Assembly (NCBI GenBank): GCA_029243245.1
Contig: JAQWSK010000016.1
Span: 124,001-188,000, forward strand
Origin: Flavobacteriaceae bacterium
GTDB lineage: Bacteria; Bacteroidota; Bacteroidia; Flavobacteriales; Flavobacteriaceae
DNA: 64,000 bases
Direction of reading: 5' to 3'
The notes below the pieces were generated by a model, which made no database searches, had not been told where the DNA came from, and was given only the letters and a program-made list of their open reading frames with translations. This document shows positions 33,550 to 36,861 of this stretch, one piece after another (the first letter of the stretch is position 1; each line of letters starts with the position of its first letter). Both the position numbers and the translations under genes were made by a program.

Positions 33550-34638
33550 ATGAATAGATATTTATCTCCAATTTTAATTTCATTACTTATTTTTTTCAAT
33601 TCATGTGATCAACATCCAAATTTAGATCCTGGTATATATGCTGATATTGAAACTAGCAAAGGCAACATTATGCTTTTTTTAGAATATGAAAAAACACCAC
33701 TTACTGTTTCAAATTTTATTGCTTTAGCTGAAGGGAATCATCCAAGTGAAGATTTACTTGAAGAATTTAAAGGGATTAAATATTACGATGGAATAGTTTT
33801 TCACCGTGTTATAGAAAATTTCATGATACAAGGAGGTGATCCAACTGCTACTGGTCAAGGTGGGCCCGGATTTAAGTTTGGAGATGAAATAACAGACTTA
33901 CTACACTCTGGAGCTGGAATCTTATCTATGGCGAATGCTGGTCCAGGCACTAATGGAAGTCAATTTTTTATAACGCATAAAGCAACCCCCTGGTTAGATG
34001 GCAAACATACGGTTTTTGGAAATGTAATTGCAGGGCAAGAAGTGGTTGATAGTATCATACAAAATGATACTATTCAAAAACTAACTATTATAAGAAAAGG
34101 TTCAAAGGCTAAGAGTTTTGACGCACCTTCTGTTTTTAAAAATTTTCTAACTAAAATGAAAAATGATGAAGAGTTGGTAGAGATTAAAAAAGCTGAACAA
34201 AGAGATAAAAATTTTGAAAAATTTACTCTCCAAAAATCTCAATCTAGCGCTACATCTTCAGGTCTTGAAGTAACTATTACTTTAAAAGGCAAAGGTCCAA
34301 AGGTAAGCACTACAAACACTGCTTTAACTCACTATGCTGTTTATTTGTCTGATGGAACTATTGTTGAAACTAGCATGATAGATCTTGCAAAAGAAAATGG
34401 AATATATGATTTTCGAAAAGAGCAAAGTGGAGGCTATGATCCAGTTCCTTTTAAGGTAGGTCAAGATGCACAATTAATTTCTGGGTTTAAAGAAGGAATT
34501 AAATTACTTAATGTTGGTGATAAAGCAACTCTTTTTCTTCCTTATAACATTGCTTATGGTGAAACTGGAAATAGAGTAATTCCTCCAAGTTCTAATATAA
34601 TTTTTGAAGTTGAAATTTTTGGCTTAACTGGTGAATAA
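33550..34638 (+). CDS. Two-domain peptidyl-prolyl isomerase lipoprotein (cyclophilin + FKBP)
   Basis: A 362-residue lipoprotein (ISLLIFFNSC) holding two unrelated prolyl isomerase domains. The cyclophilin domain covers about residues 28-190 with YYDGIVFHRVIENFMIQGGD and ANAGPGTNGSQFFITH. The FKBP domain covers about 245-360 with VTITLKGKGPK, QLISGFKEGIKLLNVGDKAT and LPYNIAYGETG. It follows gldI by 10 bases and should act on envelope proteins. This fusion is a known Bacteroidota arrangement. Confidence 0.93.
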   Translation: MNRYLSPILISLLIFFNSCDQHPNLDPGIYADIETSKGNIMLFLEYEKTPLTVSNFIALAEGNHPSEDLLEEFKGIKYYDGIVFHRVIENFMIQGGDPTATGQGGPGFKFGDEITDLLHSGAGILSMANAGPGTNGSQFFITHKATPWLDGKHTVFGNVIAGQEVVDSIIQNDTIQKLTIIRKGSKAKSFDAPSVFKNFLTKMKNDEELVEIKKAEQRDKNFEKFTLQKSQSSATSSGLEVTITLKGKGPKVSTTNTALTHYAVYLSDGTIVETSMIDLAKENGIYDFRKEQSGGYDPVPFKVGQDAQLISGFKEGIKLLNVGDKATLFLPYNIAYGETGNRVIPPSSNIIFEVEIFGLTGE

Positions 34639-35692
34639 ATTAAATAATTATAATAAAAATTATTTAATCAAATGGTTACTTGCAATTTCATTTCCATTTC
34701 AATTTATTTTAATTCAGAAAGAAGGGTTTTTAAATTCTACTTTCTTTCATTTTTATGTTGATAATTATAAATATATATCTGATTTAAGAACTAGTTTCTT
34801 TTCCTTTTTCTTAATATCTATTGGAGATATTTTTTACTCATTATTTGTTGTGTTATCAATAGTTTATTTTTTAAAAAACAAATCATATTATTTTAACTAT
34901 AAAACTCGATTTTTCATAGATATTATATCAGTATTGAGTTTTATAAATATTTTTTTTCAATTATCATGGGGGCTAAACTATCAATCTCAACCTCTTGAAA
35001 TAAAGCTTAAGATTGATAAATCTTACAGTGAAGAAGATCTAGAAAAAACAATTTCATATCTAATTTTTAAAACAAATTATCTACATAAAAAACTTTCGAA
35101 AAATGACACCTCAGCTATTAAATTTCCATTTAACAAAAAAGAAGCTAGACTACTCTTAGAAGATGAGGATACCGGTATTGTTAAAAATTCACTTTGGAAT
35201 ACTCCCTTATCCTACATGGGGTATTCCGGGTACATAAATCCCTTCACTCTTGAGGCTCAAGTAAATGCGAAAATTCCGATGATCAGCTATTTAACGACTA
35301 TTGCACATGAACAATCACATCAAAAAGGGGTTGCAGCTGAAAACGAATCAAATTACTGGGCTTTTAAAAATACATCCACCAATAAAAACCCATATGTAAA
35401 ATATGCAGGATATAGCTTTGCTTTAAGGTATTGCATGTCTAATTTATATAAAAGAAATTCAAAAAAGGCAAGAATTTTATCTGAAGAGATTTTTCCTGGG
35501 GTTAAAAAAAACTTCAATGATATTAATGAATTTTGGAAGAAGTACCAAAACCCTTTCGAGCCTATTTTTAAAAAAACATATGATAAATTTTTAAAAATTA
35601 ACAATCAAAAATCAGGAATAGCAAGTTATAATGAAATGGTATCACTTGTAATCTTTGATTTAAAAAATGACATTAATAGTCAAAAAAAATAA
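34631..35692 (+). CDS. DUF3810 family membrane protein with HExxH motif
   Basis: A 353-residue protein with about three N-terminal membrane helices (to residue 117), the conserved LSWGLNYQSQPLEIKL, and a soluble C-terminal part. TTIAHEQSHQKGVAAENESN contains an HExxH zinc-protease motif followed by a Glu/Asn-rich segment that could give a third ligand, so a gluzincin-like metallopeptidase is plausible. The start is a GTG overlapping the stop of the isomerase gene. DUF3810 proteins have no established function that I know. Confidence 0.87.
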   Translation: MNKLNNYNKNYLIKWLLAISFPFQFILIQKEGFLNSTFFHFYVDNYKYISDLRTSFFSFFLISIGDIFYSLFVVLSIVYFLKNKSYYFNYKTRFFIDIISVLSFINIFFQLSWGLNYQSQPLEIKLKIDKSYSEEDLEKTISYLIFKTNYLHKKLSKNDTSAIKFPFNKKEARLLLEDEDTGIVKNSLWNTPLSYMGYSGYINPFTLEAQVNAKIPMISYLTTIAHEQSHQKGVAAENESNYWAFKNTSTNKNPYVKYAGYSFALRYCMSNLYKRNSKKARILSEEIFPGVKKNFNDINEFWKKYQNPFEPIFKKTYDKFLKINNQKSGIASYNEMVSLVIFDLKNDINSQKK

Positions 35693-35731: not shown

Positions 35732-36067
35732 ATGAAAAAATATATATTTCTTTTTATTTTTCCACTCTCTTTTGTTTCAGCACAGAGCTATTTCCCTGAA
35801 AATTCTAGTGTAAAAACAACAAAAAGTATCTATCAAGCATTTACTAATGACACAATTCATGTTTCTGAAGATATAGTAATTGATAATCAATTGGGAAGTT
35901 TAAAGGTTGGTAAAGATGCAACATTATTTATTTCAAAAGGTGATGCTCTTGATATGAAAACTAATATACTATCTAATGCTTTTATTAATGGTAGAGAAAT
36001 AAGTCTTGAAACTCATCACACAGAGTTATGGAAGCGTTATTCAGAAAAATTTAGCAGTCAACAATAA
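35732..36067 (+). CDS. Internally deleted amidohydrolase remnant (N- and C-terminal ends fused in frame)
   Basis: The 111-residue product has a signal peptide (FPLSFVSAQ) and then SSVKTTKSIYQAFTNDTIHV, which looks like the first residues of the exported amidohydrolases normally coded here in flavobacteria. After about residue 50 it jumps to GSLKVGKDATLFISKGDALD followed by AFINGREISLETHHTELWKRY, which is how such enzymes end. The whole metal-binding TIM barrel (roughly 300 or more residues) is missing. The frame is open and the sequence is not decayed, so the junction may be recent or the product may be kept. Enzyme activity is not possible. Confidence 0.7.
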   Translation: MKKYIFLFIFPLSFVSAQSYFPENSSVKTTKSIYQAFTNDTIHVSEDIVIDNQLGSLKVGKDATLFISKGDALDMKTNILSNAFINGREISLETHHTELWKRYSEKFSSQQ

Positions 36068-36084
36068 ATTTATATGTATTTAAT

Positions 36085-36861
36085 GTGAAATTGATTTCTA
36101 GCGCGCAAAATCCTCTAATAAAAAACCTTTTGGCTATACAAAAAAAGTCAAAAGAAAGAAAAAAGCAAAAGCTGTTTGTAGCAGAAGGTGAAAAAGAAAT
36201 TGAAAGAGCTTTGCTCGGAAACTATTTTTTTAAAATCATTTTTATCCGTGAGGGCTCTACTAATTCTTTTATTAATTTCAATGAAAAAATATCTGATTTT
36301 ATAGTAATTGAAAATAAATTATTTGATAAAATAACAATTCGCTCCGGTAGTGAAAAATACATAGGCCTTGGTATATCTAAAACACATGAATTAGAGAATT
36401 TTAAGCTAAATAAAAAGGGAACAATTTTAGTTGCTGAATCAATTGAAAAACCTGGAAACATTGGTGCGTTATTGAGAACTAGTTCAGCTTTAGGAGCTTC
36501 AGCTTTTATGATAGCTGATCCAAAAACTGACCTCTATCATCCTAACGTAATTAGATCTAGCCTAGGAGGAGTTTTTAATATTCCAATATTAATATCTGAC
36601 TCAAAAAAAATAATAAATTTACTTATAAAGAATAATATTAATATAATTTCTGGAGCACTAACTAATAATTCAATTCCACTAAATAAAGCAACTTTTAATA
36701 AACCTTGTGCTGTTGTAGTTGGAAGCGAATCAAAAGGTTTAAAAAGTGATTGGATTAAAAATTCATCAGAAACTGTTCGAATCCCTATGAATAATAATAT
36801 AGATTCTTTAAATGTTTCTGTTGCTGCTGCGATACTATTACAGTATTCTTTAGATAATTAA
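36085..36861 (+). CDS. SpoU/TrmH family RNA 2'-O-ribose methyltransferase
   Basis: A 258-residue SPOUT methyltransferase. ISSAQNPLIKNLLAIQKKSKERKKQK at the N-terminus is the substrate-binding domain typical of this group. The three SpoU motifs are present: EKPGNIGALLRTSSALG, CAVVVGSESKGLKSDW and IPMNNNIDSLNVSVAAA. It probably methylates a ribose in rRNA or tRNA using S-adenosylmethionine. The start is a GTG at 36085; an ATG two bases earlier is directly followed by a stop in its frame. Confidence 0.92.
   Translation: MKLISSAQNPLIKNLLAIQKKSKERKKQKLFVAEGEKEIERALLGNYFFKIIFIREGSTNSFINFNEKISDFIVIENKLFDKITIRSGSEKYIGLGISKTHELENFKLNKKGTILVAESIEKPGNIGALLRTSSALGASAFMIADPKTDLYHPNVIRSSLGGVFNIPILISDSKKIINLLIKNNINIISGALTNNSIPLNKATFNKPCAVVVGSESKGLKSDWIKNSSETVRIPMNNNIDSLNVSVAAAILLQYSLDN

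Follow-up and report, generated by a model that had tools for sequence, protein, structure and literature searches.

The window analysed here is a stretch of 64,000 nucleotides from a Flavobacteriaceae bacterium, and all positions refer to it. Its + strand carries an ORF of 111 codons (35732..36067), present in the ORF list, which by homology to relatives is a fused remnant made of the head of one gene, A, and the tail of another, B. It is flanked on the left by a DUF3810 gene (34631..35692) and on the right by a gene for a SpoU-type rRNA methyltransferase (36085..36861), both also on the + strand, recognised by Pfam and synteny and kept in the same position in relatives. The ORF opens with a signal-peptide-like start from gene A (35732..35785, + strand), consisting of KK, a hydrophobic core and SAQ; this call is a visual judgement made with no predictor, and the A heads of relatives begin alike. 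Alignment to relatives assigns positions 35732..35878 (+) to codons 1 to ∼49 of the 997 of gene A, and positions 35885..36067 (+) to the last ∼61 codons of gene B, from about codon 377 of 437 and including its stop. A likelihood scan places the junction within 35866..35884 (+), the best points for the final A base being 35873 and 35878–35881.

Searched alone, the ORF hit no Pfam family at E ≤ 1 and matched no NCBIfam model, while its tail weakly matched PDB 3ooq (E 0.005). The HxH motif, through which amidohydrolases bind metal, is absent from it. A promoter and terminator scan left the + strand empty, and promoter-like sites were fewer than in shuffled sequences.

Two neighbouring genes in relatives

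We searched the ORF against 60 genomes, namely its own (G000) and 59 relatives. Residues 1–53 match the beginning of a ∼1000-aa ORF (72% identity in G003), and residues 36–110 the end of another of ∼440 aa (77% identity in G003). The E-values of the two halves against single genomes are 2.9e-20 and 9.9e-34, which rules out chance for both matches. Full-length A (997 aa, two amidohydrolase modules) matches PF01979 in two stretches and full-length B (437 aa, amidohydrolase-like) in one, so that the amidohydrolase label derives from the full-length proteins and, weakly, from the match of the ORF's tail to 3ooq. The initial annotation had described an amidohydrolase-type head fused to an amidohydrolase-type tail and had proposed to align both halves to the amidohydrolases at this locus in relatives. 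Each half found its counterpart, the head in A and the tail in B, that is, in the start and the end of two different PF01979 genes. The accompanying term "internal deletion" fails if one gene was meant, since two genes are spanned.

The expectation of one or two amidohydrolase genes between DUF3810 and SpoU in relatives was also borne out, with two such genes in the congeners. The genus search covered seven genomes including the window's own, one per species, and intact A and B lie on one contig between DUF3810 and SpoU in four of the six congeners. The gene order in these four (G003, G005, G001 and G004) is DUF3810, A (993–997 aa), B (427–437 aa), SpoU and RelA/SpoT; in G003 and G005 a spacer of 5 bp separates A from B. 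In G002 (end of C12, start of C5) and G006 (C58, C63), both genes lie at contig ends and the assembly breaks inside A, which is split in two; more structural variation at the locus could be hidden there. A 136-aa frame of G002 was considered as a second mini-gene and rejected: it is the head of A, truncated where contig C12 (20,558 bp) stops.

Both A and B are present in 90 of the 95 fetched loci, on the same strand in all 90 and less than 150 bp apart in 89; the remaining five are cut by contig ends. These loci were picked mostly through the ORF's own tail, so the presence of B in them is expected. The pairs L039/L122, L040/L124 and L041/L120 each stem from one and the same contig; the first member of each pair was dropped from the conservation counts only. 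Of the 397 family genomes searched, the ORF has a match in 263 and none at E ≤ 1e-4 in 134; from these counts the gene pair appears to be often lost or absent in the family. The matches listed from the 397 genomes include no similar fusion, and those from genomes other than G000 are all in frames of at least 400 aa.

Size and junction of the deletion

The missing stretch measures exactly 3977 bp on G003 and likewise on G005, 3944 bp on G001 and 3932 bp on G004. The suggestion that one large deletion had caused the fusion thus agrees with the 3977 bp missing relative to G003 and G005. With G003 as the model, the likelihood scan favours a join at 35873 or 35878–35881; with G005 it favours 35873. 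On either side of one short interval, the head aligns to A of G003 and the tail to its B with no gap. At 35879–35884 the ORF reads ATTGAT; the G003 counterparts are ATTAAT in A and ATTGAT in B. Hence the junction carries a microhomology of ∼6 bp (ATTRAT), five of the six bases being common to A and B in G003, whose genes stand in here for the lineage's own ancestral sequence. With a spacing of 5 bp, B is in a different frame from A; 3977 bp leaves a remainder of 2 on division by 3, and therefore the frame of A runs into the tail of B.

On these sequences the junction fits a short-homology, RecA-independent deletion. In Salmonella, 19 of 30 spontaneous deletions that were analysed ended in homologies of 6–15 bp (PMC3386194). 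The ∼6 bp of our junction falls within that range, although the Salmonella deletions were spontaneous and observed whereas ours is deduced from a comparison between species. The initial annotation had also put forward homologous recombination between tandem paralogues, and A and B are indeed paralogous (alignment scores 99–124) and adjacent. In the alignment, however, the counterpart of A codon 49 is near B codon 46, yet the join sits at B codon 377, at non-paralogous positions sharing only ∼6 bp, and a comparison of the whole of A with the whole of B in G003 DNA gave no exact shared word longer than 13 bp. A crossover at equivalent positions, which would leave a full-length hybrid, was accordingly rejected; in its simple form recombination between the paralogues is refuted, and we give it almost no credence.

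The deletion is known from one assembly, and an assembler that skipped ∼4 kb of a genome with intact A and B would have yielded the same ORF. Against such an artefact, exact words shared near the breakpoints in G003 reach 8 bp at most, and 13 bp at most for A against B as a whole. Usual assembly overlaps are longer than 8–13 bp. To skip this stretch, an assembler would presumably have needed a longer exact match, which argues against an artefact, and the missing bodies are found on no other contig, though the assembly is only 90% complete; overall we consider this explanation very unlikely. In the 16 contigs of this 90%-complete assembly the deleted DNA gave a single 39-bp match. The A and B proteins of G003 searched against it found, beyond the ORF itself, next best matches at E 4.9e-5 and 7.3e-6, in other amidohydrolases. 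A relocation of A or B within the genome was rejected, the missing bodies being absent elsewhere in the assembly at that completeness.

We therefore consider it highly probable that a single deletion took away nearly the whole of both genes, joined the start of A to the end of B and left a recent remnant, most likely non-enzymatic and perhaps still made. The ancestor would have carried two adjacent, secreted, amidohydrolase-type genes between DUF3810 and SpoU, A (997 aa) and, 5 bp after it, B (437 aa). One deletion of ∼3.98 kb would then have linked A codon ∼49 to B codon ∼377 at the microhomology of ∼6 bp, and the frame of A would have run on into the tail of B by chance (one in three), leaving an ORF of 111 codons with the start region and signal peptide of A and the stop of B. 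The two-gene state in relatives, the size of the deletion and its junction are observed; that they reflect a single event, by slippage or by RecA-independent short-homology recombination, is what we infer. A series of smaller deletions in A and B, keeping head and tail in frame by luck, would be compatible with the same end product, but the gapless alignment of both parts to G003 up to one short interval makes a single event the simpler account, and we judge stepwise loss to be very improbable indeed. The remnant left by the single deletion may still be transcribed, translated and exported; it would do so without both barrel regions and without the HxH of A's second module, and is expected to decay.

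The ORF is a further instance of ordinary gene loss, which is of a known kind. Gene remnants in Rickettsia are, in the cited passages, mostly single genes broken into several ORFs (PMC2374718). The likeness to those passages is a short ORF derived from pieces of longer genes that are intact at the same place in relatives; in contrast to the mostly single, fragmented genes described there, our ORF joins two neighbouring genes in frame and is undecayed. Searches of the literature on amidohydrolase pseudogenes in Flavobacteria and on amidohydrolase pseudoenzymes returned nothing on this locus, and for chimeric genes made by deletion there was no bacterial case among the matches listed. The locus captures gene loss in a small-genome flavobacterium at good resolution, showing both ancestral genes, the size of the deletion, its junction and, roughly, a limit on its age. 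The case is also a warning to annotators that a clean small ORF with a signal peptide can be the product of a recent deletion.

Constraint, age and fate of the product

The initial annotation had remarked on an open frame and an undecayed sequence, and both observations hold: there is no stop in the ORF, and amino-acid changes show no detectable excess. Compared with G003, identity is 90% between the tail and B (59 codons, pS 0.47, pN 0.050) and 77% between the head and A (47 codons, pS 0.44, pN 0.120), with pS of 0.34–0.56 in seven flanking genes. Using G005 as the outgroup and dropping codons with gaps or N, we counted for the ORF, on the G000 branch, 6 amino-acid changes against 7 synonymous ones, and for the same parts, on the G003 branch, 6 against 8; a further 5 amino-acid differences among the 105 codons are ambiguous. 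The corresponding amino-acid to synonymous counts in the flanks are 117:208 and 191:238, and comparison of the ORF with the intact A and B parts or with the flanks gave no significant contrast (Fisher p 0.55, 0.56 and 1.0). The ORF deviates at 4 of the 44 columns that are at least 90% conserved in relatives (positions 26, 40, 76 and 96). Most relatives deviate at 0 or 1 such columns per half, while G001, G004 and G006 do so at 4–6 in the tail; because these three deviate as much, the changes in the ORF are no more than a hint.

We simulated the neutral case and found that 11 changes or fewer have a probability of 0.43 at 0.05 substitutions per site and of 0.02 at 0.08. Under this model a neutral ORF would be allowed at most ∼0.05–0.08 substitutions per site since the deletion. 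The whole G000 branch is roughly 0.3–0.4 synonymous substitutions per site long (our own estimate from pS), and a neutral ORF must date from about its last quarter or less. With few changes and no decay, either the deletion is recent or the ORF is constrained; the data do not tell these apart, and recency requires no new function. The absence of visible decay thus fits a recent deletion, yet is also compatible with selection on the product.

We assessed the fold with AlphaFold2, using an alignment of B tails only (A2), since one that included A heads (A1) had aligned the heads with tails. The ORF with 19 B tails gave a mean pLDDT of 43.1 and a pTM of 0.21, and full-length B of G003 with 18 relatives, at similar alignment depth, gave 72.5 and 0.76. 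In the full-length protein, block means in the tail are 68–91 over residues 381–420, and the strands within residues 30–62 are largely confident. Most of these partner strands, and the barrel, are missing from the ORF. Both of its halves derive from the amidohydrolase superfamily (PF01979; PDB 3ooq), but it lacks the barrel and metal sites of these enzymes and goes unrecognised by Pfam or NCBIfam. It is almost certainly without enzyme activity and, if made, is probably degraded or inert.

Retention of the product as a secreted mini-protein under purifying selection, for instance as a piece of the former A/B pair with a binding or regulatory role, would agree with the open frame, the signal-peptide-like start, the small number of amino-acid changes, ambiguous ones included, and the identity of the tail to B at so high a pS. 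Such low rates are equally expected from a recent deletion, however. Moreover, changes have hit the conserved residues named above, some congeners deviating as much, a confident fold is absent and the matches listed from the 397 family genomes contain no comparable fusion; we regard retention as decidedly unlikely. There is likewise a very slim chance that selection maintains the ORF as a novel secreted mini-protein, one that arose when the deletion put A's signal peptide and first strand in frame with B's C-terminal strand-helix unit. A retained product would exemplify how deletion can create a new small secreted protein.

The metal motif in A and B

The HxH motif is missing from B and from the first module of A in relatives. 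At the equivalent site B has N-x-T, the N being invariant in 19 aligned B proteins, and the second module of A has HSH or HTH in 88 of 88 cases. In the motif column table, the columns for A module 1 and B begin one residue before the HxH-equivalent site, and N-x-T was read from other alignments. B is amidohydrolase-like by sequence family and, because it lacks HxH, not clearly an active amidohydrolase; from its sequence it may act alongside A as a conserved pseudoenzyme partner. Gene B of G003 lies at L122:6572-7885, and B of the relatives is likewise found beside A in nearly all fetched loci.
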